Below, piece by piece: positions 6,578-56,661 of a stretch of DNA of 64,000 bases. The position numbers and the translations under genes were made by a program. How positions within the stretch are numbered: the stretch's first letter is position 1; every line of letters begins with the position of its first letter. Source of the DNA: Streptomyces fulvorobeus (lineage in GTDB: Bacteria; Actinomycetota; Actinomycetes; Streptomycetales; Streptomycetaceae); assembly GCF_013167895.1 (NCBI RefSeq), contig NZ_BLWC01000001.1:1674001-1738000 (forward strand). The letters run 5' to 3'. Under the pieces are notes generated by a model. That model was given only the letters and a program-made list of their open reading frames with translations, made no database searches and was not told the origin of the DNA.

Positions 6578-7887
6578 TCACCTGCGGGCACCCCGGGAGA
6601 CGATCGCCTGACGGTACAGCTCGGCCGTGCCGAGGGCCGCCCTGGCCCAGGTGAAGCGGGCGAGCACCCGTTCGCGGCCGGCCGCGCCGAGGCGGGCCCG
6701 CAGTTCCGGGTCGCCGAACAGCCGGCCGAGGGCGACGGCCAGCGCGCCGGCGTCGCCCGGCGGCACCGCGAGGCAGGTCTCCCCGTCCGGGCCCGTGACC
6801 TCGGGGATCGCACCGCCGGTCGTCGCGACGAGCGGGGTGCCGGTGGCCATCGCCTCGGCCGCGGGGAGGGAGAAGCCCTCGTACAGCGAGGGGACACAGG
6901 CGATCTGGGCGCTGCGCACCAGGTCGACCAGGTCGGTGTCGCTTATGCCCTTGACGAACCGGACGGCGTCCTGGAGCGCGTACCGCTCGATGGCCTGGGC
7001 GACGGGGCCGTCCTCGGCCCGCCTGCCGACGACCACGAGGTGGGCCGAGGGGTTCTCGGTGCGGAGCTTGGCCAGTGCCTCAACCAGGTGGACGAGGCCC
7101 TTGAGCGGGACGTCGGCGCTGGACGTGGTGACGATCCGGCCGGGCACCTCGGCGACGGACGGATCGGGCGACCAGAGGTCGGTGTCGGCCCGATGTGCAC
7201 CACACCGATCCGGTCCCGGCGTACGCCGAGGTGTTCGACGATCTCCTGCTGGGAGGAGCCGGAGACGGTGAGGACGGACGGCAGGCGGCGGGCGACCCGC
7301 TTCTGCATACGGGTGAAGGCGTACCAGCGGCGTACGGAGGCGCGGCGGCGCCTGCTGCCCGCGGCGTCCAGGTCGAGCTGCCGGTCGACGGTGATGGGGT
7401 GGTGGATCGTGGTGACGAGCGGGGCTCCGAGGTCGCCGAGCAGGCCGTACCCGAGGGTCTGGTTGTCGTGGATGACGTCGAAGTCGCCGCGCCGGGCCAG
7501 GAGGTGGCGCCGGGCCCGCAGGCTGAAGGTGAGCGGTTCGGGGAAGCCGCCGGTCCACATGGTGGCGACCTCGGCGAGGTCGATCCAGTCGCGGAACTCG
7601 CCGCGCCCCGGGGTGCGGAACGGGTCTGACTGGCGGTACAGGTCCAGGCTCGGCAGCTCGGTGAGCGGGACACCCTCGTCGAGCACCGGGTAGGGCTGGG
7701 CGCCGATCACTTCGACGCGGTGGCCGAGGCGGGCCAGTTCGCGGCCGAGATGGCGTACGTAGACGCCCTGGCCGCCGCAGAAGGGGTTGCCCTTGTAGGT
7801 GAGGAGCGCGATGCGCAACGGCCGGTCGTCGGCGGCGGGTGCCGCGGTGCCCGCCCGGGGGCCCGTCTCTACGGCCTCAGCGGTCAC
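6578..7887 (-). CDS. GT4-type glycosyltransferase (frameshifted)
   Basis: The GTG at 7887 is chosen because AAGGGAG lies 6 nt upstream; an in-frame GTG at 7905 has none. The N-terminal half carries ALLTYKGNPFCGGQGVYV, the donor/acceptor loop of GT-B glycosyltransferases. The frame breaks after VVHIG at a run of three C (plus 7189-7191). One more base gives HIGADTDLWSPDP and continues to 6578 for 436 residues. The second half holds PSLYEGFSLPAAEAMATGTP, the EX7E nucleotide-sugar motif of family GT4. It is the first gene of the operon and is divergent from a KstR-like regulator. The sugar and acceptor are unknown. Confidence 0.82.
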
Positions 7888-36513: not shown

Positions 36514-36524
36514 CCGTCTCTCCT

Positions 36525-36576
36525 GCCGAGGCGCGTCCGGCTCCCCGCCGCTCCGGGGAGCCGGACGCGCCTCGGC
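36525..36576. terminator. bidirectional terminator with 22-bp perfect stem
   Basis: A 22-bp arm (36525-36546, starting GCCGAGGCGCG) is perfectly complementary to 36555-36576 across an 8-nt loop. It sits between the convergent DoxX and SOD-like genes, 12 bp after one stop and 41 bp after the other. No U-tract follows, as is common for Streptomyces terminators. Confidence 0.8.
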
Positions 36577-36616
36577 GTAGGGGACGGGCGGTACCGGCCC
36601 GGCCCGCGAACCGGGC

Positions 36617-43211: not shown

Positions 43212-43308
43212 TCAGAAGTGGATGTCGAAGGCCCCCAGCCATGATCGGCTGGGGCCTTCGTACTGGTGGGCGCGGACGGTTTCGAACCGCCGACATCTGC
43301 TTTGTAAG
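43212..43308. repeat. left direct repeat / attL of the AICE (tRNA-Val 3' fragment plus terminator)
   Basis: Two parts are duplicated at 56534-56631. Positions 43263-43308 (46 bp) are identical to the 3' half of tRNA-Val, from CCA to the anticodon loop, and form the att core. Positions 43212-43262 carry a hairpin (43227-43259) homologous to the tRNA terminator on the right but with changes on both arms. There is no 5' half of a tRNA here, so this is the displaced chromosomal tRNA end. Confidence 0.88.
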
Positions 43309-43417: not shown

Positions 43418-44482
43418 TCACGGGTTCGGCATCTGCTCGTCGGCTGCCCTGCGCGGTCGCGTCAAAGCCGCTGCGGCGCGCCTGTCGTCAGCGTGCTTCT
43501 GCTCTATCGAGGCTCGCAACTCCGCAGGGGTCGGCCATGGCGCGCGCCGGTGGATCATGCGGTGACAGTTGGCGCAGATGAGGGCGAGATCGCTGAGCTT
43601 GGTGCGGCCCTCCCCCGCTACATGGAGCGGAAGGACGTGATGGCACTCGATGTACCCGGCACCGCGATCCCCGTAGATCTTCTCGAAGTCGAAGCCGCAC
43701 GCCTCACAAGCGAGCTGTCCGCCACGCTGAAGAACAGAAGCGATCTTCTTCTTACGCAGGCTCTTGTTCCGTTCACGCGCCCGGTGCCGCCGCATGAGCA
43801 GCCGCCCCTCCGGCGCGCTGTAGTCGTCGCCGAACTCCTCGTCCTCGGTCGGCGCGAAGGACTGCAATTCGCCAGTCGTGATCCCCTGACGGATCAGCCG
43901 CGCGGCCTCGGTCATCTCCTGCGGCCGGGCAAGGAACTCATGCAACACAGCGACATCCAGCACGCCACCGTTGGTGGGCTTCCCCCGATACTCGGGGTGG
44001 CGAGTGGCGATGTCGAACGTCTTACGGGCGACGCCGTTGGAGTTGCGGAACTTCTCGTTGCGGTCCGCCTCCGCGTGGATGGGCAGCAACTGGAGGAGGG
44101 CAGACAGCTCCACCACTCGGCCGTCCTCGGCGTCCAACCCCTTCCATCCGTTCTGCATCACAAGGTGGCAGGCAAGGATGATCTCGTCGCGAGCCCAGTC
44201 CGGGTTCTTGATGGCCTTGACCTCGAAGCCAACCCGCTTGAGCCACGCCGCGGCATGATCCTTGCCCCCGCTGAACTCGTCCGGCGTGAGGGCCCGCCCC
44301 TGATCCCACTTGTGGGCCACCCCGGCGACGGCCTTGGAGTCGTACTCCTGGCCCTCGTGAACCAGCACGTAGGACCGCGCCTCCCCGAAGCCGTACTTCG
44401 TCAGGAAGGCTTCACGCCCCAACTCGTCATGCTCCGCCAGGACCTTGAGCACGGACTTTCGCGTGATCGCTCCTCTTCGCAT
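43418..44482 (-). CDS. ScoMcrA-like HNH endonuclease (putative type IV restriction enzyme)
   Basis: 354 residues from ATG 44482. The N-terminus ITRKSVLKVLAEHDELGREA, then GEARSYVLVHEGQEYDSKAV, is the head domain first seen in ScoMcrA of S. coelicolor, an enzyme that cuts modified (methylated or phosphorothioated) DNA. The middle WARDEIILACHLVMQNGWKG to FRNSNGVARKTFDIAT is a DNA-binding module common to McrA-like HNH nucleases. The C-terminal HNH has CEACGFDFEK, GYIECHHVLPLHV and LICANCHRMIHR: zinc CxxC pairs plus catalytic His-Asn-His. The SRA and sulfur-binding domains of ScoMcrA (about 630 residues) appear absent. Likely a defence cargo gene. Confidence 0.82.
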   Translation of the reverse strand: MRRGAITRKSVLKVLAEHDELGREAFLTKYGFGEARSYVLVHEGQEYDSKAVAGVAHKWDQGRALTPDEFSGGKDHAAAWLKRVGFEVKAIKNPDWARDEIILACHLVMQNGWKGLDAEDGRVVELSALLQLLPIHAEADRNEKFRNSNGVARKTFDIATRHPEYRGKPTNGGVLDVAVLHEFLARPQEMTEAARLIRQGITTGELQSFAPTEDEEFGDDYSAPEGRLLMRRHRARERNKSLRKKKIASVLQRGGQLACEACGFDFEKIYGDRGAGYIECHHVLPLHVAGEGRTKLSDLALICANCHRMIHRRAPWPTPAELRASIEQKHADDRRAAAALTRPRRAADEQMPNP

Positions 44483-44573
44483 AGGAAGATCGTAGGGCCG
44501 GGTACTGACAACACCCTCGGCGTCCGACAGGCGCATCGTAGTGGCGTACGGCATCTTCGTCTGGAAGCGACAG

Positions 44574-44741
44574 CTACCTCTTACAGTGTTGGCAGGCTGC
44601 CAGGCATTGCTCCTTGGCCTTGTCCTCGGCCATCGACTCCTGGCCCATGTAAGTGTGCTGTTTCCCGTTAAGCGACGGGCAGTCAACATCACTGTGGTAC
44701 TTGGAGCGGTACTCCCCGATGCGTACGTAGACAGCGCTCAT
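44574..44741 (-). CDS. 55-residue Cys/His protein next to the HNH nuclease
   Basis: ATG 44741 follows AGAGGAA. The protein reads SAVYVRIGEYRSKYHSD, then DCPSLNG, and ends EQCLAACQHCKR. The pattern YH-x(4)-C-P ... A-x(2)-C-x(2)-C resembles the short zinc-binding tail on many micrococcal-nuclease-like proteins, where an Ada-type knob contacts DNA. It is on the same strand, 92 bp upstream of the HNH endonuclease gene, so they may form one operon. Too short for most gene callers; the good ribosome site and stable motif support it. Confidence 0.62.
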   Translation of the reverse strand: MSAVYVRIGEYRSKYHSDVDCPSLNGKQHTYMGQESMAEDKAKEQCLAACQHCKR

Positions 44742-45116
44742 AGGGTTCCTCTACTGGCTGCGTCAGCGTCATGGATTCAGCCCACGGCAAGAAACACCCC
44801 ATCTTGCCTGACGTCCATCCCTAGAGGGAAGCCCGTGGAGTCAGGGACCTGTGACCTGCAGTGTCGCCGCTGGCGGCCGGGCTCAACTGTCACCGCCTGG
44901 CGCTGTTGGTCGGCCTCGGGGATCGTCGGACGGCCCAGGGACGGCCCAGGCCGTTTTGCCGTTCTCGCGCTCACCTTGGCTCACAACCCTTCTGACGTCG
45001 AGCCACGTGGGCACTCCGTGCCAAGATTCCAGGCACTTGATGCCAATTTCCTCTAAAGTGCATCATTTCAGGTAGATCCGACTCTACGATACGCACACCC
45101 TGAGAGGAGGGCGTGC
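44742..45116. other. intergenic region between divergent cargo genes
   Basis: 375 bp with no convincing gene on either strand. It is divergent-promoter space for the 55-residue protein (minus) and the DUF6414-like gene (plus). It contains a GGGCAC...GTGCC inverted pair around 45009-45022 and a short direct repeat GACGGCCCAGG at about 44930-44950. A good ribosome site (GAGAGGAGG) ends it. The last 60 bp are A+T-rich. Confidence 0.5.
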
Positions 45117-46109
45117 ATGATTCTGCGCGAGTTCTTGTACGTGGACACTGACAAAGTCAGGGCAATGCTGGCTCAGCTTGACGGCGGCATTGCGGAGGAA
45201 TCGAGAGAGACCGAACGCAAGGAGAAAAGGACGACTCTCGGGCCGCGTGTTGCTGGCCAATATTTTCAAGGCACTGGAAGCGAAACGTACACCAATAAAT
45301 CCCTTGGTGACGCCTTGTTTCCGACGCTCGAAGACGCTTTGGAGTCAGAATCGCTACTCCGGGACGTCTCCGAAGAGGTATCCGACCCACAGCAATGGAG
45401 TTCTGGCGAATTGAGGAGGGCGCTACCTCCGGGGTCATTGATCAGAATCACCGCCATGGGCTCCCTATTTGACACTCGCTATGCAGCCTCAGCGTTTTCC
45501 GCCTTTGGCTCCGTCGTGATGGGGCTCAACGATCTTGGTTATATGCAAACCGTCAAGCCTGCGATTCAGGGCAAATCCAGGCAAGGGCAACAGGGGCGGA
45601 CACCTAAGCAGAAAACGGCAGACGGGCCCGTTGCGCTTGAGGACTCAATTCCAGACTTTCCTGATATCGGAGGCGCTGACGGGAAAACCCTGAGAGCGTT
45701 CGTAAAGGTCTCCAAGGGAGTTTTCGCTCCTGGCCTCCACGTGAACCTCACTCCGGTAGAGGGCGTCCTCATCAACTCACGCCTGCAGGAGGGGCGTCAG
45801 TACCTGGACAGTGAATCCGACATCCTGTTCGCCCGATATGGGACAGAGCGACAGGAGTGGACCGTGGTAGGCAGCATTGGAAGCTACGGAACAGAGGAGA
45901 CCTCTCTCCCCAATATGGAATTCCATAATGCGGATGGCACGGTGAACCGCGCGAAGTTCGCAGATTCCATGAATGCCCAGATGCGAAATCTCGGCCGCCT
46001 TGGCTTCATTGACCTTCCGCAGCAGCCAGGGTTTTCGCTCATCCCATTCGCCGTTTATCGGTCAATCCCCCGCAGCGACGCCGTGGCGGTTACCAGACGG
46101 CACGAGTAG
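45117..46109 (+). CDS. DUF6414-like protein (low-G+C cargo gene)
   Basis: 330 residues from ATG 45117, preceded by GAGAGGAGG. The N-terminus LREFLYVDTDKVRAMLAQLD followed by GGIAEE recalls DUF6414 proteins (recognised from memory). No signal peptide, membrane helix or catalytic motif was seen. A central hydrophilic linker rich in Gln/Lys/Gly (around 150-170) separates two folded parts. Codon use is far less GC-biased (roughly 55% G+C) than the surrounding genes, showing recent transfer. It is followed by a long structured inverted repeat and a NERD gene. Confidence 0.68.
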   Translation: MILREFLYVDTDKVRAMLAQLDGGIAEESRETERKEKRTTLGPRVAGQYFQGTGSETYTNKSLGDALFPTLEDALESESLLRDVSEEVSDPQQWSSGELRRALPPGSLIRITAMGSLFDTRYAASAFSAFGSVVMGLNDLGYMQTVKPAIQGKSRQGQQGRTPKQKTADGPVALEDSIPDFPDIGGADGKTLRAFVKVSKGVFAPGLHVNLTPVEGVLINSRLQEGRQYLDSESDILFARYGTERQEWTVVGSIGSYGTEETSLPNMEFHNADGTVNRAKFADSMNAQMRNLGRLGFIDLPQQPGFSLIPFAVYRSIPRSDAVAVTRRHE

Positions 46110-46680
46110 TTGCCCGTGGATTCCGGAGGCTTCCCGCACACCTCTGGAAACACGACCCAGATAGCCCACCACTCACCCCGGCTCCCATCCCGTCCGCCTT
46201 CGACCCACACACCGTGGAGCGGTCGTGGTTCAGGGCGTCAAGGTGGAGCGCGCCACTGTACGAACGACCTTGACGCCCTGGGCCGCGACTGCTCGGCTCT
46301 GCCTGGGTCGAAGGTGGTCGGGATGGGAGCCCCACGACGCTCGCCACGAATCCGCCGGCACTCGCGAACGGCGCCCCTCCCATCCCGGAGTCTGAGCGCC
46401 CCCGCCGGAGGCATCTCGTGAAGCCGCGGGCTTGGTTCTCGTCTCATGCCCCACGGGCCTATCCACTGTGGGCGCGCGTCGGCGGCGGCAGCGCCGAGCG
46501 GGCCGAAGGCAGGAGCGCGGGCGCAGCCAGAGCCGGGAAGCGCGCCCGGCGGAGCGGAGCGCAGCCGGGTGCCTTGATGAGGTAGAGAAACCTGTAACAA
46601 CCCTGCAAGGCTCGACAGCTAGGCGACCTTGTGGCGTTGGGTTCGCTCCTGCTCCCATGGGGGCCTGGTGTACCTGATCG
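46110..46680. other. 571-bp non-coding region with structured repeats
   Basis: No convincing gene is seen. It holds a 64-nt-arm inverted repeat (46181-46330) and a third copy of its outermost motif CTCCCATCCCG at 46378-46388. Further on is a G+C-patterned block (about 46468-46575) with repeated GCGGAGC and GCGCAGCC units, of a kind seen near accessory genes of Streptomyces plasmids. The NERD gene's promoter should lie at its right end. Confidence 0.6.
46181..46330 (+). repeat. long inverted repeat with 64-nt arms, candidate structured RNA
   Basis: The arms 46181-46244 and 46267-46330 align without gaps, 52 of 64 positions pairing exactly across a 22-nt loop. Of the 12 non-Watson-Crick positions, six (46196, 46215, 46221, 46226, 46229, 46230) are G-U or U-G wobbles if the plus strand is transcribed, and only one if the minus strand is. 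That strand bias suggests selection for an RNA hairpin on the plus strand between the DUF6414-like and NERD genes. It could also be an old duplicated operator; its role is unknown. Confidence 0.6.
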
Positions 46681-46692
46681 ATGGGGGCGAGC

Positions 46693-47532
46693 ATGGTTGC
46701 GTTACGGGTGTCGGAGTGGAAGCGGCACGGTCTGGATCGGCTCTACGTGAACGCACCCGATGGCAAAGCTGTTGCGTGGTTCGACAGGCGCACGGGACAC
46801 ATTGAGATCGTTGACGAGAGGCTGCGACCGCAGATCTTGGAAGCCTTGACCCCGTACATGATCCGGTCGGCCGCTTCGGCTAGTGGTGCTGCATCGACGC
46901 TGCGGACTCCCCCACCCTCCGACTACGACCTAGCTTCACGTCGTCCTGGCCAGGCGTTGAGAGACAAGATCAGGGCAGATTGCCCGAGCCTGATCCAACG
47001 CTCTCTCGCGTGGGCGTTGCGTCGCCCCGAGAATGCCTCCTGGAGGACAGGACTACGTGGCGAACTCATAGTCAGTCGCGAACTGACACGACTCCGTCGG
47101 CACGGCTGGCGCGCACTGCACTCCATACCGCTGTCCCCAACATGGGATATCGATCATCTGCTCATTGGGCCTGGCGGAGTCTTCTCAATCAACACGAAGC
47201 ACCACCGGGACAAGACCGTATGGGTCGGTGACCATGTCGCCCGGATCAATCACGGGGAGGGTCGGCCCTACCCTCGTAGCAGTCGGCGTGAGGCTGCCGT
47301 CGTGAGGAGAGTACTCGATCGCGAGTGCAGGTTCGCAGTCGAAGTGAACCCCGTGCTTGTCTTCGTCAAGCCAGCCAAACTTACCGTGCAACCCTCATTG
47401 CAAGACGTACGGGCCATCGAGAATCGACAACTGGCCACACTGGGTCCTCTGACTGGTGTCTTAAGTCCGGAGCAAGTCGACGCTGTGTATGCCGTGGCTC
47501 GCGATCAGCGTTCCTGGACTGGCGCAGTCTGA
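46693..47532 (+). CDS. NERD-domain nuclease-related protein
   Basis: 279 residues from ATG 46693, chosen because GGGGGCGAG lies just upstream; an in-frame ATG at 46681 has no site. The first ~100 residues are a basic Trp/Arg domain (SEWKRHGLDRLYVNAPDGKA). The NERD domain starts at GLRGELIVSRELTRL, then WDIDHLLIGPGGVFSINTK. These are the E...D...N-x-K residues of restriction-endonuclease-like folds (the usual ExK becomes NTK here). NERD proteins are linked to DNA processing and appear in plasmid and defence contexts. Confidence 0.75.
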   Translation: MVALRVSEWKRHGLDRLYVNAPDGKAVAWFDRRTGHIEIVDERLRPQILEALTPYMIRSAASASGAASTLRTPPPSDYDLASRRPGQALRDKIRADCPSLIQRSLAWALRRPENASWRTGLRGELIVSRELTRLRRHGWRALHSIPLSPTWDIDHLLIGPGGVFSINTKHHRDKTVWVGDHVARINHGEGRPYPRSSRREAAVVRRVLDRECRFAVEVNPVLVFVKPAKLTVQPSLQDVRAIENRQLATLGPLTGVLSPEQVDAVYAVARDQRSWTGAV

Positions 47533-47569: not shown

Positions 47570-48226
47570 TCAGCCAGAAGGGATGAGTCGGCTCGTGAAC
47601 CCTGCTAGACACAGGCGCTCATACGCTTCCAGCACGTTTTCCGGTACTGGTTCGTGAATCATGAACCCCTGGGTCGGATAGATGAGCAACCGCTGGAGTG
47701 CGCCCACAAGCATGTCAATCACCAGACGGGCGTCCCCGATCGAGTCCACGTACTCGCTCAGCGACATTGGAGACGACGCGCTGACGATCTCGACCTCGGG
47801 CCAGAGCTTGCGTGCCGTGGCGTAAGCACGCCTTTCCTCGTAGGGCTTGCTGATCAGCAGAACGCTCGACACCTCGACCCGGGCCTCTTCGAGCACAGCC
47901 TTAGAGAAGCGGATGTTCTCGCCGGTGTTGCGCGCCTTCGGCTCAACGAGCACGGCAGATGAGGGAACACCCAGCTCCAGGGCTCTTTCTCGGTAGTGGA
48001 CCGCTTCGCCGCGCGGCATGCGCTCCCGAGTCGTGGGGCTGCTCGCTCCGGTGAACAAGAGCAGTGGAACTACGCCCTTGTGGTATGCGGCAACCGCTGC
48101 GTCTGCCACACCTAGGTCGTGGCTTCCCAGCCCGATCGCAACCGAGCACGGACGAAGCGCGTGCCCCATCTGGTGGTAGTCCCACAGGACCCGCGTATCG
48201 CCCCACACCTGTTCTGAGATCATCAC
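47570..48226 (-). CDS. YdcF-family (DUF218) protein
   Basis: 218 residues; GTG 48226 overlaps the stop of the GntR gene, and ATG 48223 is an alternative. SVAIGLGSHDLGVADAAVAAY and LLLFTGASSPTT lead into GEAVHYRERALELGVPSSAV, with a late VEPKARNTGENI. This order is the DUF218 Rossmann-like fold that binds SAM or nucleotides in known members. It is a constant neighbour of the GntR repressor in many Streptomyces AICEs and may modify or transmit its signal. That role is inference. Confidence 0.8.
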   Translation of the reverse strand: MMISEQVWGDTRVLWDYHQMGHALRPCSVAIGLGSHDLGVADAAVAAYHKGVVPLLLFTGASSPTTRERMPRGEAVHYRERALELGVPSSAVLVEPKARNTGENIRFSKAVLEEARVEVSSVLLISKPYEERRAYATARKLWPEVEIVSASSPMSLSEYVDSIGDARLVIDMLVGALQRLLIYPTQGFMIHEPVPENVLEAYERLCLAGFTSRLIPSG

Positions 48227-49014
48227 TCCGCTTCCGCTTTCCTCGCTGAGTCCGGGACCTTGAAGTCGTATTCCCAGGCGAAGCGCGAGGCTGCGTGTAC
48301 ACCGATGGCGAACTCCACCACGGTGCCATCGGCTGTGTAGGTGGTTCGATGCAGCTCGACAACGGGTTCGCCCGGCGGTAGCTGCAAGGTCTTCACCTCG
48401 CCTGAGGTAGCAGCGCGGGCGAAGATCGCTTCCTTCATGTGGTCGATCTCGTACCCCGCGTCGTAGAGCACACGGAACCCACCGCCCCGGCCGGCCGGGC
48501 CAGGTGTCGGATCGACCAAACGAGTGCCTTCGACGTGCTCAGGCCGGTAGTAGCTGGTCAAGGTGTGCGTCGGCTGCTCACCTTCCTTCACCAACCGCGC
48601 TCGGGCGTAGACCTCCGCTCCCTCTGAGAGACCGTGTGCTGCCGCCACGGAAGGCGGGGCCTCAACAAGACTCACCGTCTGCGTCTGTTCATTGCGCCGA
48701 TAGGTGCGTCCGGATGCCACGCGGTCCGCGATGAACGCCACCTCGTCACCGTCACGCCACTTGGCCTTGTCGTACCGGGCGATACCCAACCGCTTGAGCG
48801 GTACCTGCTGGCGTACCACCGTGCCGTGTCCTCGGGATGACGTGACCAGACCTTCGGCTTCAAGAGCCTTGTAGGCGGCGTGGACCGTGGACTTAGAGCC
48901 CTCACCAGCGTCAACCAAGTCCCGAATATGCGGGAGCCGCGCGCCCGGACCGTACTCACCTGCCTTGATCTGATTAGCCAGCTTGTCTGCCAGCTCTCGC
49001 CACTTGGGCGTCAT
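48223..49014 (-). CDS. GntR-family repressor, KorSA-like (UTRA domain)
   Basis: 263 residues from ATG 49014. WRELADKLANQIKAGEYGPG, then RDLVDAGEGSKSTVHAAYKALEAEGLV (here in two parts), gives the GntR winged helix. A UTRA ligand domain follows: HTLTSYYRPEHVEGTRLVD and VVELHRTTYTADGTVVEFAI. In pSAM2 the related KorSA represses Pra and its own gene, keeping the element integrated. Three operator-like repeats in the 158-bp gap to the divergent transfer genes fit that role. Confidence 0.85.
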   Translation of the reverse strand: MTPKWRELADKLANQIKAGEYGPGARLPHIRDLVDAGEGSKSTVHAAYKALEAEGLVTSSRGHGTVVRQQVPLKRLGIARYDKAKWRDGDEVAFIADRVASGRTYRRNEQTQTVSLVEAPPSVAAAHGLSEGAEVYARARLVKEGEQPTHTLTSYYRPEHVEGTRLVDPTPGPAGRGGGFRVLYDAGYEIDHMKEAIFARAATSGEVKTLQLPPGEPVVELHRTTYTADGTVVEFAIGVHAASRFAWEYDFKVPDSARKAEAE

Positions 49015-49507: not shown

Positions 49508-50857
49508 ATGTCCGACCTGTCCACGGTGATCGAGGTGGCGGGGGCCTTATCGGCCGCCGGTGGCCTCGGCTACGCGAAGGCCCGGTCCCCGCGGGTGTTC
49601 TGGTCGCTGGTCGGCGCACCGGTCGCCCGGGTCCGGTTCACGGTGACGTACCGGGCGACGATGGATGTGTGCGGGCTGACGGTCCAGCCGTCCCGCCTGC
49701 GGGCGTTCATGGTCCGCAACGTGGCCCGCCAGGAAGTCCAGCCCGTTCCCCCGCAGGTCCGCCGGGTCCGCTACTCCTCGACCGGGATGCGGGCGACGCT
49801 TCGCCTTCCGGCCGGTCTGGAGCCTGCTGACGTGTCCGCCGCTTCCGAGCGTCTGCGGCACGCCTGGGGCGTCCACTCGGTGCACGTGGTCGAGGTGAAG
49901 CCGGGGTTCGTGGAACTGCGGATGACCGGCTACGACGTTCTGCGCCGCGTGAAGATGCCCCGCCGCCTCCCCCGCAACGTCACCGCCGGTCCGCTGGTCG
50001 TCCCCGTTGCTCTGCGGGAGGACGGCACGGCGTTCGTCCGGGACTATCAGAAGGTCCCGCACGCCCTGACGGTGGGGGCGAACCAGTCGGGCAAGTCGAT
50101 GTATCAGCGCAACCTCATCTCCGGTCTGGCCAAGCTCCCCGTCGGTCTGGTCGGGATCGACTGCAAGCGGGGTGTCGAACAGGGCGGGTACGCGCCCCGC
50201 CTCTCCGCCCTGGCGGTCACTCCGGATGAGGCGGACGGGCTGCTGGAAGCCCTCGTGGGGGAGATGGAAGAGCGCTTCGACCTCCTCAGCGACCACGGCG
50301 TCTCGGACCTGTGGGGTCTGCCTGCCGCGGTGCGGCCGGTGCCGCTGGTGGTCCTGGTCGATGAAGTCGCGGAACTGTTCCTCGTCGCTGCGAAGAAGGA
50401 TGAGGAGCGGCGGGACCGGATGGTGATGCGGATGATCCGGCTCGCGCAGATGGCCCGTGCAGTGGGGATCTTCCTGGAGGTGTGCGGGCAGCGTTTCGGC
50501 TCCGACCTCGGCAAGGGCGCGACCGCCCTGCGGGCTCAGCTCACGGGCCGTGTGGTGCACCGGGTCAACGACAAGCAGACCGCTGAAATGGCCCTCGGGG
50601 ACATTGCCCCCGAAGCGGTCTTCGCCGCGACCACTATCCCCCCGGACCGTCCCGGTGTCGCCGTGGCTGGGGACTCCTCCGGTGGCTGGTCCCGTATCCG
50701 CACCCCCGCCATGACTCCGGCCGAAGCGGTCGCGGTCTGCCGGGAGTACGCGCACCTCACCCCGCACCTTGCCGCTCTGGCACCGTTCCGGCCGGCCGTT
50801 TCCGCCGCCCCGGCCCCGGGCTCACCGCTCCTCAAGCCTCGCCCGGCAACCAGCTAA
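49508..50857 (+). CDS. FtsK/SpoIIIE-type transfer ATPase (TraB/TraSA-like)
   Basis: 449 residues from ATG 49508. After a ~190-residue N-terminal part, Walker A is GANQSGKSM, followed by GLVGIDCKRGVEQGGY. Walker B is PLVVLVDEVAEL. The segment CGQRFGSDLGKGATALRAQL and TGRVVHRVNDKQTAEM are FtsK/SpoIIIE family motifs. In pSAM2 and related elements this single protein pumps double-stranded DNA between hyphae. A C-terminal Pro/Ala tail may hold the winged-helix recognition part, but none is obvious. Confidence 0.88.
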   Translation: MSDLSTVIEVAGALSAAGGLGYAKARSPRVFWSLVGAPVARVRFTVTYRATMDVCGLTVQPSRLRAFMVRNVARQEVQPVPPQVRRVRYSSTGMRATLRLPAGLEPADVSAASERLRHAWGVHSVHVVEVKPGFVELRMTGYDVLRRVKMPRRLPRNVTAGPLVVPVALREDGTAFVRDYQKVPHALTVGANQSGKSMYQRNLISGLAKLPVGLVGIDCKRGVEQGGYAPRLSALAVTPDEADGLLEALVGEMEERFDLLSDHGVSDLWGLPAAVRPVPLVVLVDEVAELFLVAAKKDEERRDRMVMRMIRLAQMARAVGIFLEVCGQRFGSDLGKGATALRAQLTGRVVHRVNDKQTAEMALGDIAPEAVFAATTIPPDRPGVAVAGDSSGGWSRIRTPAMTPAEAVAVCREYAHLTPHLAALAPFRPAVSAAPAPGSPLLKPRPATS

Positions 50858-51221: not shown

Positions 51222-51908
51222 GTGTCCCGCATCCGAATCGACGCCGTACTCGTCCAGGCCGTCATCGCCGGTGCCCTGTCCTTCGCCCACCTGCACGACC
51301 TGGCCGCAGCCGCCGGGCAGGACGGCTGGAAAGCCTGGGCCTACCCGGTCAGCGTTGATCTGCTCCTTGTCGCCGCCTGGCGCCGTATGCGCACCACCGC
51401 GGACAACCGTGCTGCCTGGGCCTGGTTCGTCATCGCTCTCGCCGCATCGCTGGGCGCGAACGTCGCCACCGCCGGACTCCTCGACCTCGGTGACGTTCCC
51501 GCCTGGCTGCGCATCCTCGTCGCCGGATGGCCAGCCCTCGCCTTCCTCGGCGGAACCCTCCTCGTCCACAGCCCCGCCGCCGCGCCCACTGAGCCCCAGC
51601 CCGTCACGGCGGCAACGCTGCCCGCCCCTTCCGAACCCGAACCGGCCCCAGACGTGACAGTGGAGCGGACGCCCGAACCGGCCCCCGAACTTCCTCCCGC
51701 GCCTGCTCCTGAGGAAGCCGCGGCACCTGCTCCGGCTCCGGTGTCCGCTCCGGCCGCGGCCGTTCCTCCGGCCCTTCTGGATCACGCCCGGAAGCTCGCC
51801 GACACCCACCAGGCCACCACCGGCAGCCGGATCGACTCCGCCACCCTGCGCGCCCGCCTCGGTGTCCCCGCACCCCTCGCCGACGCCATCACCGCCCAAC
51901 TCACCTAA
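51222..51908 (+). CDS. DUF2637 (Spd-like) membrane protein
   Basis: 228 residues from GTG 51222, with AAAGGAGGTGAA 5 nt upstream. About four helices (VQAVIAGALSFAHLHDLAAA, YPVSVDLLLVAAWRRM, WFVIALAASLGANVATAGLL and LRILVAGWPALAFLGGTLLV) are followed by a Pro/Ala-rich linker of ~60 residues and a short helical C-terminal domain. This is the usual DUF2637 arrangement found in spread (Spd) genes that distribute the element within mycelium. Confidence 0.82.
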   Translation: MSRIRIDAVLVQAVIAGALSFAHLHDLAAAAGQDGWKAWAYPVSVDLLLVAAWRRMRTTADNRAAWAWFVIALAASLGANVATAGLLDLGDVPAWLRILVAGWPALAFLGGTLLVHSPAAAPTEPQPVTAATLPAPSEPEPAPDVTVERTPEPAPELPPAPAPEEAAAPAPAPVSAPAAAVPPALLDHARKLADTHQATTGSRIDSATLRARLGVPAPLADAITAQLT

Positions 51909-52801: not shown

Positions 52802-52952
52802 GCCCTCCCCGAATGCCCCGCCCACCGGCTCGGCGGTCTGCCACTGCGGCGCCACCGCGACCGCCACGGGCGATGCCCAGGTCAAGGCCCTGGTCGAGGG
52901 CTACACCAGCAACCACGGCCCCGCCCACCACCGGACGGAGGCCCGGCGATGA
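52752..52952 (+). CDS. small conserved AICE protein
   Basis: 66 residues from ATG 52752, inside the previous gene's 3' end. It reads PDRPGLHVSKPSPNAPPTG, then AVCHCGATATATGDAQVKAL and a final HGPAHHRTEARR. One CxC pair. The stop overlaps the next ATG (ATGA), implying coupling to the PAPS-reductase-fold gene. I recognise the family only as an AICE companion. Confidence 0.6.
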   Translation: MADLTPTPDRPGLHVSKPSPNAPPTGSAVCHCGATATATGDAQVKALVEGYTSNHGPAHHRTEARR

Positions 52953-53767
52953 CCAGCACGCAGAGTCCGTTGCGGGCCTTCAGCTTCGGCGGTGGCTGGC
53001 AGTCCATGGCCGCCCTCGTCCTCGCCGCACAGGGACGCATCGACTTCGACACCTTCCTGTTCGCCAACGTCGGCGACGACAGCGAGAACCCCGACACCAT
53101 CACCTACGTCCGCGACTACGCCCAGCCCTTCGCCGCCGCCCACAACCTGAAGCTCATCGAACTGGAACGCCACCTCCGCGGCGGCCAGACCGAGACCATT
53201 CGCCAGCGCATCATCAACAGCAACGGCAGCCGCCAGACGATCCCCGTCTTCCTCTCCAACGGCAAACCCGGCGGCCGCGCCTGCACCTACGACTTCAAGA
53301 TCCTCGTCACCGGAAAGTGGCTCAAGGCCAACGGCGCAACACCCCAGAACCCCGCCACCGTCGCCATGGGCATCAGCCTCGATGAGATCGGCCGCGCCAA
53401 CGCAGGCAAGGCCATGCCCTACGAGCGGCTGACCTACCCGCTGCTGGACTTGAAGATTCGGCGGGCGGACTGCCCGCGCATCATCCGCACGGCCGGACTG
53501 CCCGTGCCCCCGAAGTCCTCCTGCGACTTCTGCCCCATGCGCAAGATCCCCGAATGGCAGGCCATGCGGGAGAAGAACCCCGCCCGGTTCGAGCGGGCCT
53601 GCCAGGTCGAAGAGACCATCAACCACCACCTCGCCGCCAAGGGCAAGCGCCCTGTCTACCTCACCCGCACCGGACGGCCCCTGCGCCACCTCTTCAAGGG
53701 CGGCGATCAGCTCCCCTTGTTCGACACCGACAACGAGGGCTGCGACAACGGGTGGTGCACCACATGA
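52949..53767 (+). CDS. PAPS reductase/ATP-pyrophosphatase-fold protein of the AICE
   Basis: 272 residues; the ATG overlaps the previous stop. FSFGGGWQSMAALVLA is a PP-loop-type nucleotide site (degenerate SGGxxS). FLFANVGDDSENPDTITYVR and GRACTYDFKI follow, and SSCDFCPMRKIPEWQAM has a CxxC near the end. This resembles PAPS reductase, QueC, TtcA and DndC proteins, which use ATP to activate sulfur or nucleotide chemistry. The gene sits directly upstream of the replication initiator. A nucleic-acid modification role is possible but not shown. Confidence 0.7.
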   Translation: MTSTQSPLRAFSFGGGWQSMAALVLAAQGRIDFDTFLFANVGDDSENPDTITYVRDYAQPFAAAHNLKLIELERHLRGGQTETIRQRIINSNGSRQTIPVFLSNGKPGGRACTYDFKILVTGKWLKANGATPQNPATVAMGISLDEIGRANAGKAMPYERLTYPLLDLKIRRADCPRIIRTAGLPVPPKSSCDFCPMRKIPEWQAMREKNPARFERACQVEETINHHLAAKGKRPVYLTRTGRPLRHLFKGGDQLPLFDTDNEGCDNGWCTT

Positions 53768-55176
53768 CCCACACCGCCACCACGGCGGGCCTGGACCCGG
53801 CCACCCTGGGCGATCTGCTCCGGGTGGTCGGGGCTCCCGGCTTCGACCGCCTCACCGAACAGCTCCGCCGCACCGGCGGCTGCTTCCAGCCCATCCACCT
53901 CACCGGCGCCACCAAGACCATCGACAGGGCAACCGGCACCCTGCTGCACCACTACTCGACAGACACCGAGCCCGGGGGACGGTTACGGATCGCCTGCGGC
54001 AACCGCCGTGCCTCCCGCTGCCCCGCCTGCGCCTGGACCTACGCAGGCGACACCTACCACCTCATCCGAGCCGGACTCACCGGCGACCCCGACAAGGGCA
54101 CCCCGACTACGATCCGGGATCACCCGCGGGTCTTCGCGACCTTGACGGCCCCGTCGTTCGGCCCGGTCCACAACCGGCCCGGCAACCGGCCCTGCCGCTG
54201 CGGCACCCGGCACGCGGAGGACGCCCCGGAGCTGGGCACACCGCTCGACCCGGACACCTACGACTACGCGGGGGCGGTGCTGTGGAACAACCACGCCTCC
54301 GACCTCTGGCGCTACTTCACGATCTACCTCCGCCGCGAAATCGCGAAGCGAGCCGGACTCACCCAGAAAGCCGCCCGCGAACAGTCCAAAGTCTCCTTCG
54401 GCAAGGTCGCGGAGTACCAGAAGCGCGGGGCCGTCCACTTCCACGCGGTCATCCGCTTCGACGGACCCGACGGCCCGGACACCCCGCCCCCGGCCTGGGC
54501 CACCCTCGACCTGCTGGACGACGCGATCCGCGCCGCCGCCGCCCGGGTTGAAGTAGTCGTGCCGGCCAACCCGGAAGCCGGGGTCAACGAGGGGTGGACG
54601 TTGCGGTGGGGCACGCAGCTCGACGTGCAGCCCATCGGCGCGTTCGGCAACGGTGAGGATCTGACCGAACAGGCCGTGGCCTCGTACGTCGCGAAGTACG
54701 CCACCAAGGCGGCCGAGACGACCGGCACCGTGGACCACCGGGTCGGCAACAAGGAAGCCCTCGTCCTCCTCGACGTGCCCGAGCACCCGCGGCGGCTGAT
54801 TGAAGCGTGCCTGGACCTGCACCACGCCTACCCCGAGCGCAAGCTCCGCGACTGGGCCCACATGCTCGGCTTCCGCGGCCACTTCTCCACCAAATCCCGC
54901 GCCTACTCCACCACCCTCGGCGCCCTCCGCCAGGTCCGCGCCGACTACCGCGCCGCCGAACAACGCGCCGCCCTCGGCCTCCCCGACCCCGACGACCACC
55001 CGGAGGCCACCACGCTCACGCTCGCGCACTGGGCCTACGCCGGGAACGGCCACACCCCCGGCGAATCCTGGCTCGCCGCCAACATCCACCGCGACATCCA
55101 GCACAACCGCGAAACCGCCCGCGAACACCGCGCCGAACTGCAAGACCAACTCGCTCTGGAAGGAGCCGCATCGTGA
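53764..55176 (+). CDS. RepSA-like replication initiator
   Basis: 470 residues; the ATG overlaps the previous stop. Cys-rich N-terminal region (CGNRRASRCPACAWTYAGDT, then CRCGTRHAED) is a zinc-type module of RepSA. RGAVHFHAVIRFDG carries the HxH motif of HUH-like rolling-circle initiators, and EQAVASYVAKYATKAAE holds the Tyr motif. It should nick an origin and start rolling-circle replication after excision. The origin is probably within or near this gene, as in pSAM2, but I cannot locate it. Confidence 0.85.
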   Translation: MTHTATTAGLDPATLGDLLRVVGAPGFDRLTEQLRRTGGCFQPIHLTGATKTIDRATGTLLHHYSTDTEPGGRLRIACGNRRASRCPACAWTYAGDTYHLIRAGLTGDPDKGTPTTIRDHPRVFATLTAPSFGPVHNRPGNRPCRCGTRHAEDAPELGTPLDPDTYDYAGAVLWNNHASDLWRYFTIYLRREIAKRAGLTQKAAREQSKVSFGKVAEYQKRGAVHFHAVIRFDGPDGPDTPPPAWATLDLLDDAIRAAAARVEVVVPANPEAGVNEGWTLRWGTQLDVQPIGAFGNGEDLTEQAVASYVAKYATKAAETTGTVDHRVGNKEALVLLDVPEHPRRLIEACLDLHHAYPERKLRDWAHMLGFRGHFSTKSRAYSTTLGALRQVRADYRAAEQRAALGLPDPDDHPEATTLTLAHWAYAGNGHTPGESWLAANIHRDIQHNRETAREHRAELQDQLALEGAAS

Positions 55177-55361
55177 CCACCGCCACCGCCGAACTCCTCA
55201 CCGTGCCTGAGGTCATGGCGCGGCTGAAGCTCGGACGCTCCACCGTCTACGACCTGATCCGCTCCCGCCGACTGGTCTCCATCACCATCGGCCGGGCCCG
55301 GCGCATCCCCGCCGACGCCGTACGGGACTTCATCGTCAACGAGATCGAGGAAGCCGCCTGA
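55173..55361 (+). CDS. excisionase (XisSA-like helix-turn-helix)
   Basis: 62 residues; the GTG overlaps the RepSA stop. LLTVPEVMARLKLGRSTVYD and LVSITIGRARRIPADAV form a MerR/excisionase winged helix. It binds near the att sites and directs Int to excise the element. Its stop overlaps the int start (TGATG), the standard xis-int arrangement. Confidence 0.88.
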   Translation: MTTATAELLTVPEVMARLKLGRSTVYDLIRSRRLVSITIGRARRIPADAVRDFIVNEIEEAA

Positions 55362-56518
55362 TGCCTCCCCAGCGCAAGCGCAACCCCAACGGCGCGGGCA
55401 CCATCACCAAGCGCAAGGACGGCCGCTATCAAGCCGCGGTATACGTGCTCCAGCCGGACGGCACCCGGGCCCGCAAGTTCGCCTACGGCAAGACCTGGGC
55501 CGAGTGCGACGCCAAGCGCCGTGACCTGCTCGCCAAGGTGGACCAGGGCGTACCCGTGCCCACGCGGTCGGCCAAGCTCGCCGAGTGGCTGCCCTACTGG
55601 CTGGAGAACATCATCAAGCCGCGCCGCAAGCGCACGACCTACGCGAAGTACGAGACGCACATCCGCCTCTACCTCGTGCCCATGCTCGGCTCGAAGCGCC
55701 TCGAATCGTTGAGCGTCGCTGACGTCCGGCGCTTCCTGGTCCGGCTGGAGCAGCAGACCACCGCGGCGACCGCCAAGGAGTCCCACCGCGTCCTGCGTAC
55801 GGCGCTGACGGCTGCGTGCCGGGAGGAACTCGTCATGCGGAACGTGGCGACCCTCGTGGAACCGCCCTCCGCAGTGGCTCGGGATCTCTCCCCCTGGTCG
55901 TTGGACGAGACCCTGTCCTTCCTCACCGCCGCCCGGAAGGACCCGCTCTACGCAGCCTTCGTGCTCGCCATCGCGCTCGGCTTCCGCCGTGGGGAGATCG
56001 TGGGCCTTCGATGGGAGAACGTGGACCTCGACAAGCGGGAGATCCGGGTCCGCACTCAGCGGCAGCGTGTCCGCGGTGAGGCGTACGAGGACGATCCCAA
56101 GGGGCGTCGCAGGAAGCAGACGCTTCCCCTGCCCGCCCTGTGCGTGGCCCCGCTCCGCTGGGAACGTCTAAGGCAAGCGGCCCTGCGTGAGGCTGCCGGT
56201 GATCAGTGGGAGGAGACCGGCTACGTCTTCACCACCCGCTCCGGCCGGCCGATTGAGCCGCGCAACCTGTACCGCTCGTTCACCCGGGTCGCTGGCACCG
56301 CAGGGCTTCGCGTCATCCGGCTGCACGATGCCCGCCACGGCTGCGCGACCCTGCTCACCGCCGCTGGCGTCCCGCCCCGTGTCGTGATGGAAATCCTCGG
56401 GCACAGTCAGATCGCAGTGACGATGAACATCTATGCCCACGTCGTCCAGGACACGCAGCGCGAGGCCGTGAGTCACCTCGACCGGATGTTGAAGCGGCAG
56501 CGTCCCGACCGTGGGTGA
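55361..56518 (+). CDS. int: site-specific tyrosine integrase
   Basis: 385 residues from ATG 55361. An N-terminal arm-binding region with GAGTITKRKDGRYQAAVYVL is followed by a SAM-like core-binding domain (about 70-150). The catalytic domain shows FRRGEIVGLRW (Arg I), a Lys region, RLHDARHGCATLLTAAG (HxxR) and LGHSQIAVTMNIYAHV (His and nucleophile Tyr). All catalytic residues are present. It lies 68 bp from attR and should recombine the tRNA-Val att sites. Confidence 0.93.
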   Translation: MPPQRKRNPNGAGTITKRKDGRYQAAVYVLQPDGTRARKFAYGKTWAECDAKRRDLLAKVDQGVPVPTRSAKLAEWLPYWLENIIKPRRKRTTYAKYETHIRLYLVPMLGSKRLESLSVADVRRFLVRLEQQTTAATAKESHRVLRTALTAACREELVMRNVATLVEPPSAVARDLSPWSLDETLSFLTAARKDPLYAAFVLAIALGFRRGEIVGLRWENVDLDKREIRVRTQRQRVRGEAYEDDPKGRRRKQTLPLPALCVAPLRWERLRQAALREAAGDQWEETGYVFTTRSGRPIEPRNLYRSFTRVAGTAGLRVIRLHDARHGCATLLTAAGVPPRVVMEILGHSQIAVTMNIYAHVVQDTQREAVSHLDRMLKRQRPDRG

Positions 56519-56533
56519 CCGCGCCCGTTGATG

Positions 56534-56631
56534 TCAGAAGTGGATGTCAAAGACCCCCAGCCATGATCGGCTGGGGGTCTTTGTGCTGGTGGGCGCGGAC
56601 GGTTTCGAACCGCCGACATCTGCTTTGTAAG
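56534..56631. repeat. right direct repeat / attR of the AICE
   Basis: Homologous to 43212-43308. The 46-bp core 56586-56631 is identical and covers the 3' half of the tRNA; the flanking hairpin differs by paired substitutions and one indel. The intact tRNA gene on this side keeps its own chromosomal 5' half and takes its 3' end from the element. Confidence 0.88.
56549..56582 (-). terminator. terminator of tRNA-Val (and convergent int)
   Basis: AAAGACCCCCAGCC pairs perfectly with GGCTGGGGGTCTTT over 14 bp around a 6-nt loop. On the minus strand it ends in TCTTTG just after the tRNA 3' end, and on the plus strand it follows the integrase stop. The copy at 43227-43259 is its displaced chromosomal counterpart. 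Confidence 0.8.
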
Positions 56632-56661
56632 AGCAGCGCTCTACCCCTGAGCTACGCACCC
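56587..56661 (-). tRNA. tRNA-Val(UAC), CCA encoded
   Basis: 75 nt on the minus strand fold as a normal cloverleaf: acceptor GGGTGCG/CGCGCCC (one G-U), D-arm GCTC/GAGC, anticodon stem CTGCT/AGCAG with loop CTTACAA, and T-arm GGCGG/CCGTC with TTCGAAA loop. The anticodon is UAC. Discriminator A plus CCA is encoded. The 3' 46 nt match attL, so the element uses this tRNA as its integration site and preserves it. Confidence 0.93.

Follow-up and report, generated by a model that had tools for sequence, protein, structure and literature searches.

Actinomycete integrative and conjugative elements (AICEs) rank among the main vehicles of gene exchange in Streptomyces. They replicate as rolling circles and therefore need a route for second-strand synthesis. 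In Streptomyces plasmids, the available text of two papers places the single-strand origin (sso), or sti, downstream of rep and spdA2 (PMC4170104, PMC11985553), and the second of them, from 2025, describes sti as the second-strand synthesis site downstream of rep. An sso has also been described in an integrative and conjugative element (ICE) of Bacillus subtilis, ICEBs1, where sso1 is orientation-specific and contains stem-loops according to the available part of the report, which adds that finding ssos in other ICEs needs sequence, structure and direct tests combined (PMC4595007). In this study, we analysed a 64,000-nt stretch of Streptomyces fulvorobeus (contig NZ_BLWC01000001.1, positions 1,674,001 to 1,738,000; the window is this whole stretch), which carries a 13.3-kb RepSA-type AICE between tRNA attachment (att) repeats. 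An earlier note had tied the genes at the left end of this AICE, together with an RNA hairpin between them, into a possible anti-phage system. We found that the hairpin belongs to an intergenic element of two modules. Judging from its sequence, we consider it very probable that the element would act as an AICE sso with an added, exchangeable giant hairpin, and that the genes around it are separate.

The element and its modules lie as follows:

46166..46599, + strand: AICE replication element made of giant hairpin and sti-type box, a candidate single-strand origin; found across AICEs at a constant strand and position
46179..46331, + strand: giant hairpin module, type 1; model R1 scores 174.8 bits on the + strand vs 112.2 on the − strand; compensatory changes; + strand fold preferred
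46467..46599, + strand: conserved box shared with pIJ101, pJV1 and pSN22 (probable sso/sti core); model R2 scores 87.5 bits, the window being one of the 22 R2 sequences

The hairpin arms (46180-46244 and 46267-46331) are 65 nt long and 82% complementary, which is far beyond chance. With DNA parameters the fold of 46181-46330 had a z of -11.8, and 0 of 200 shuffles were equally good; with RNA parameters the fold of 46110-46600 had a z of -6.9. The box alone folded no better than shuffles (z -0.2). Among 34 aligned copies, 21 of the 60 hairpin pairs carried paired changes on both sides and few were broken. The + strand of the hairpin was the more stable one in all 58 distinct copies, by a mean of 8.8 kcal/mol (DNA parameters). 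Full copies are intergenic and span about 430 nt, from about 46166 to 46590-46599 in window coordinates. A weak R1 match elsewhere in the window, at 36517-36585 (22.7 bits, E 0.005), is probably due to chance.

The box links the element to the classical plasmids. Model R2 draws on 22 AICE-type copies, with free plasmids excluded; 14 of the copies came from a RepSA-ranked sample described below, each first found by BLASTN. R2 matched pIJ101 at 7266-7389 on the − strand (8.6e-19), pJV1 (1.4e-11) and pSN22 (2.3e-11), as well as pTSC2 and three more small circular plasmids. The pIJ101 stretch, used as a BLASTN query, gave matches in 32 plasmid records, of which 28 are from Streptomyces. In pIJ101, rep (95% identical to the Rep of pSN22) and a 135-aa spdA2 frame lie upstream of the box on the same strand, and traB lies downstream. 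The orders in pJV1 and pSN22 are alike: rep, box, a GntR gene on the other strand, and traB. Thus the presumed sti/sso loci of these three plasmids share with the element a conserved box of about 130 nt, on the rep/traB strand, between rep and the kor/tra genes. They differ from it in that they and the four other free plasmids are without a giant hairpin 5' of the box (0/7). We also observed that on the classical conjugative plasmid pJV1 (L248; loci are given by our own handles) the gene at 1778-2221 bears the annotation 'Pycsar system effector family protein'.

A 581-nt query around the hairpin found matches (E <=0.001) in 126 of 150 genomes of the genus, up to 12 per genome, a count that takes in short weak matches, many matches being partial. 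The own genome holds three full copies plus a left-half and a right-half match; its remaining matches are short or are antisense matches of the palindrome. Strand and place were surveyed by tblastn (at least 100 bits) in 57 stretches with 62 copies, comprising 55 copies or clusters from the genus, pMR2 and the window. Since these stretches were picked for the element, the survey is silent on the share of AICEs that carry it. The element shared its strand with TraB in 35/35 cases, with Rep in 38/38 and with Spd in 34/34, and all three lay downstream. Int was on the element strand in 32 of 33 cases, and the strand of the GntR regulator was mixed (9 and 9). Because related copies are not independent, these counts are not to be read as probabilities. 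Two direct copies of the element lie 4.3 kb apart in the own genome (L048:5995-10760, C1 3771994-3776760), and bound a cargo interval that encodes a 314-aa protein weakly matching type IV restriction (PDLC03662, 6.3e-7).

The RepSA-ranked sample was drawn from the other side: 61 genomes were searched with RepSA, and even ranks 2-90 gave 45 loci, 8 of them already in hand. The box was found in 35 of these 45 loci, 8 by BLASTN and 27 of the other 37 by R2 (E 0.01), and all 27 R2-found boxes were on the Rep strand; 20 of the 37 scanned loci already had part of the element by BLASTN. The R1 hairpin was found in 13 of the 45, so that the box is the more widespread of the two modules. AICEs with a box but without the type-1 hairpin often carry another giant hairpin directly 5' of the box. 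Two further sequence types were seen, which are related to each other and share nothing but the box with the window. By a rule of at least 36 long-range pairs and z <=-4, whose thresholds were fixed after seeing preliminary folding results, a giant hairpin stands 5' of the box in 23 of 31 AICE-type loci, vs 0/7 free plasmids (Fisher 5e-4) and 0/40 random stretches. This count excludes three box matches that are weak or at contig edges (L219, L221, L234) and includes as AICE-type L108, in whose stretch TraB and Rep were not found. The + strand was favoured in all 23 AICE-type giant hairpins.

Several observations weigh against an AICE sso. The pIJ101 box is matched to sti by gene order rather than by coordinates, and in one free plasmid, L251, a short and weak R1 match lies beside the box (E 9e-6). 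One Int gene is on the strand opposite to the element. In 20 of the 62 copies, matches of at least 100 bits to TraB, Rep and Spd were absent within the stretch, so that copies do occur outside recognisable AICEs. One of these 20 is the Micromonospora AICE pMR2, whose box match is weak (E 0.0034) and whose annotated replication initiator and FtsK protein lie on the element strand. The box was undetected in 10 of the 45 RepSA loci, some of which are cut by contig ends. Outside the genus the picture is thinner. R1 matched in 28 of 246 genomes of the class and 11 of 103 genera, and only 3 of 20 extra-genus hairpin loci had the box; the two-module arrangement is therefore well supported in Streptomyces only. 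Rep, TraB or Spd matches, mostly weak, were present at 8 of these 20 loci and the strand agreed in 7, the Rep matches being too faint to decide most of the loci; the sole mismatch is L193:3114-9910, where the complete AICE nearest to the hairpin copy lies on the opposite strand. As to the copies without TraB, Rep or Spd in their stretch (e.g. L074, L080, L092, L095), they may be AICE remnants or belong to another carrier.

If the element is an sso, it would work as follows. In rolling-circle replication of this kind the displaced strand is the rep-sense strand. RepSA would drive rolling-circle replication of the excised AICE circle, and the displaced strand would carry the + strand of the element and fold. 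Host enzymes would then be able to prime second-strand synthesis by means of the giant hairpin and the sti-type box, as suggested by the plasmid homologues. In classical Streptomyces plasmids the box stands by itself, and in AICEs it usually has one of several dissimilar giant hairpins directly on its 5' side. The ICEBs1 sso1, likened here by description, differs in having three stem-loops, as given in the available text, vs one hairpin of about 150 nt plus a box (PMC4595007). In contrast to ICEBs1, AICEs transfer via an FtsK-type TraB. No report joining AICEs and ssos, nor one of the element itself, was found in the open-access literature searched, whose scope excludes earlier papers behind subscription about pSAM2, sti and pSN22. 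The element thus offers a defined sso candidate with a strand, boundaries and a classical plasmid homologue for comparison, and it raises the question of why integrating elements carry an added giant hairpin when the examined free plasmids have none. A second job for the giant hairpin is conceivable, though unlikely: it might serve AICEs as a further single-strand signal, specific to them and additional to the plasmid sso, for instance a single-stranded-DNA promoter, such as Frpo of F is, or a dock for an AICE protein. A promoter of this kind would fire only while the displaced strand is exposed, switching on the gene directly after it (e.g. that for the NERD protein). If this were true, several unlike hairpin types would share one job in one slot.

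Other explanations of the element are much less probable than a single-strand origin. The many copies, some 2-5 kb apart, had raised an integron-like cassette or a miniature inverted-repeat transposable element (MITE), which was dropped on the fixed-strand result. A MITE-like or other selfish repeat hitch-hiking in AICEs would fit the full and half copies in the own genome, the 20 copies without nearby AICE genes and the direct copy pairs. It is nevertheless very unlikely, because the strand is fixed relative to Rep and TraB where a MITE would be expected in either orientation, the homologous box sits at the same gene-order position in free plasmids, and unlike hairpins occupy the same slot. 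A structured RNA, e.g. a regulator or antisense RNA of replication, would agree with the strand-specific fold and its wobble pairs (243 G.T vs 5 A.C, a count biased by a folding program that allows G-U). However, the upstream bases from -80 to -11 are unconserved (mean information 0.04-0.12 bits per base, 49 copies) and therefore leave no space for a common promoter. No Rfam family reached its gathering score, the best being mir-4776 with 38.3 bits vs 97; the microRNA matches in Rfam, all below gathering, were set aside because such models fit any long hairpin. Moreover, the element is conserved as DNA at the plasmid sso position. The absent promoter space and the plasmid homology thus favour folded single-stranded DNA, and we regard an RNA as improbable. 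Of the RNA hairpin in the earlier note, the hairpin on the + strand was confirmed, but as half of a two-module element and more probably as DNA. It is also highly improbable that the element is clt, the TraB binding site for double-stranded transfer. It does lie about 2 kb upstream of TraB, and the clt of pSAM2 is undescribed according to the available text of PMC9513070, but double-stranded transfer needs no strand-specific fold and the box matches plasmids at the reported sso position.

The cargo genes on either side of the element bear on the remaining alternative:

43418..44476, − strand: HNH nuclease, McrA-like, type IV restriction candidate, cargo; PF01844 2.9e-9, PADLOC mREase_IV, PDB 5zmm and 6ghc
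44574..44741, − strand: 55-aa Cys-rich open reading frame (ORF), status uncertain; no family match
45117..46109, + strand: DUF6414 protein, AICE cargo, function unassigned; PF19952 2.3e-34, relatives at AICEs
46681..47532, + strand: NERD-domain protein, recurrent AICE accessory gene; PF08378 5.2e-14, same slot in L061, L071, L072 and L100

The earlier note was right that HNH, DUF6414 and NERD genes are present. In the remaining alternative, DUF6414, hairpin and NERD, with the HNH gene, would form one new anti-phage or anti-plasmid system of which the hairpin is the RNA part. Some observations agree with this: the DUF6414 stop lies 57 nt from the element in the window and about 50 nt in L053, and some portion of the element is present at 6 of 9 other DUF6414 loci (L053, L107, L108, L109, L112 and L157; not at L110, L111 and L113). 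PADLOC also matched neighbours of DUF6414 at 4 loci, namely a cyclase of the cyclic oligonucleotide-based antiphage signalling system (CBASS), 4TM/2TM effectors, type I/III restriction-modification proteins and a C5 methyltransferase, in a look at proteins chosen by eye at 4 of 27 DUF6414 loci with no control. However, co-occurrence of DUF6414 with NERD in other genomes, on which the note itself had staked the joint system, was not seen. NERD was found at none of the 8 further loci where a close relative of the DUF6414 protein is encoded (L053, L107-L113), and it adjoins the element in four AICEs (L061, L071, L072, L100) where DUF6414 was not found. The pairing of DUF6414 with the hairpin stands in part, yet many element-bearing AICEs are without a DUF6414 gene that we could find, the box occurs in plasmids of about 10 genes, and DUF6414 relatives are found in 4 of the 150 genus genomes vs 126 for the element (the latter including short weak matches). 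The two co-occur because both lie in the same kind of AICE. There is hardly any likelihood left for one joint system; the island and the hairpin are real, but they are independent modules that the earlier note had tied together.

The surrounding AICE was mapped as follows:

43251..43308, no strand: attL, a copy of the 3' part of the tRNA gene; 95% identity over 58 nt with 56574-56631
47570..48226, − strand: YdcF-like DUF218 protein, AICE gene; PF02698 3.9e-17
48223..49014, − strand: GntR/UTRA regulator (KorSA position); PF07702 1e-20, PF00392 1.3e-14
49508..50857, + strand: TraB, FtsK/SpoIIIE-type transfer protein; PF01580 1.1e-28
51222..51908, + strand: DUF2637 (Spd-like) protein; PF10935 9.9e-24
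53764..55176, + strand: RepSA rolling-circle initiator; NF041486 816.7 bits (cut-off 700), PF20199 1.3e-155
55173..55361, + strand: excisionase (Xis); TIGR01764 1.1e-10
55361..56518, + strand: tyrosine integrase; PF00589 8.7e-26
56574..56631, no strand: attR within tRNA-Val (56587-56661, −); direct repeat plus tRNA prediction

It is an AICE of the pSAM2 type: RepSA, tyrosine integrase and Xis, FtsK-type TraB and tRNA att repeats are all present, and the GntR and DUF2637 genes are shared with that type as well. It differs from pSAM2-type AICEs in its cargo only and in nothing essential. Direct repeats of 58 nt bound it and place the cargo at the edge of a mobile element, as the earlier note had supposed. 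The G+C content is 0.56-0.66 at 43-49 kb vs about 0.70-0.75 over most of the window. The lower-G+C island of about 4 kb that had been claimed is thus a true dip at the left end of the AICE, but it reaches to about 49 kb, past the claimed end and through the YdcF and GntR genes. From left to right this end reads HNH (−), Cys-rich ORF (−), DUF6414 (+), hairpin, NERD (+), YdcF/DUF218 (−) and GntR (−). In the examined AICEs the stretch from attL to the element is a landmark, an exchangeable cargo zone that includes restriction- and CBASS-like genes.

At least one cargo gene looks restriction-like, in keeping with the earlier expectation for such a site. The first 86 residues of the HNH protein match ScoMcrA (PDB 5zmm, 4.7e-23) and its HNH part matches EcoKMcrA (6ghc, 5.6e-6); PADLOC mREase_IV matched residues 3-88 (1.4e-24) and the HNH part (2.7e-7). 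ScoMcrA, however, has 561 aa vs 352 aa in the window protein, whose middle region matches neither ScoMcrA nor EcoKMcrA, and for residues of about 90-245 the Pfam, PADLOC and PDB searches found no match. The start was taken by eye near 44476, because the longer ORF, reaching 44692, overlaps the Cys-rich ORF. In L072, L073 and L084, relatives of the HNH gene are found on the strand opposite to the element, 2.4-3.2 kb upstream of it. The 55-aa ORF that the earlier note called a Cys protein does exist, but it has no family match, and among the fetched loci its only homologues are overlapping copies of its own place.

The DUF6414 relatives in the genus include one partial and one weak match, and 7 loci of named genomes carry further ones; a search for the PF19952 family gave matches in 24 of 396 phylum genomes and in 1 of 14 controls. 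In the AICEs L107, L109 and L112, DUF6414 has the matching place and direction. A scan of viral contigs gave no relative, the PDB gave no sequence match, the word DUF6414 was absent from the open-access literature searched, and the predicted fold (8-sequence model) was unusable, with a mean predicted local distance difference test score of 41.6. DUF6414 is a recurrent AICE passenger, and we take it for a solitary cargo gene. Like the HNH gene, it is exchangeable cargo, and both may be defence genes; for DUF6414 itself we hold this only as a tentative inference. In an AICE of Streptomyces alfalfae, a CBASS-like pair of a CD-NTase (PADLOC Cyclase 9.7e-46) and a 4TM effector (5.1e-23) stands directly upstream of DUF6414 (L109:5957-7589), and in L154:307-6711 a CBASS cyclase, a 2TM effector and a type III methyltransferase stand in the vicinity of a DUF6414 gene that looks broken. 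As an AICE accessory gene, NERD often begins directly behind the element: its start lies 74-103 nt past the element in five AICEs (the window, L061, L071, L072 and L100) and 2 kb from it in L085, with further NERD matches in L213 and L216.

Two minor observations concern AICE structure and content. In the circular record L254 (NZ_CP071873.1, 27,773 bp), an AICE-like unit of about 10.4 kb is repeated about 2.7 times, as judged from repeated protein accessions, which is either a multimeric circle or an assembly artefact. Within the window, a 272-aa ORF at 52949-53767 (+), for which Pfam gave no match, resembles PAPS-reductase/DndC-like proteins by eye and has a tblastn match at the AICE L059.

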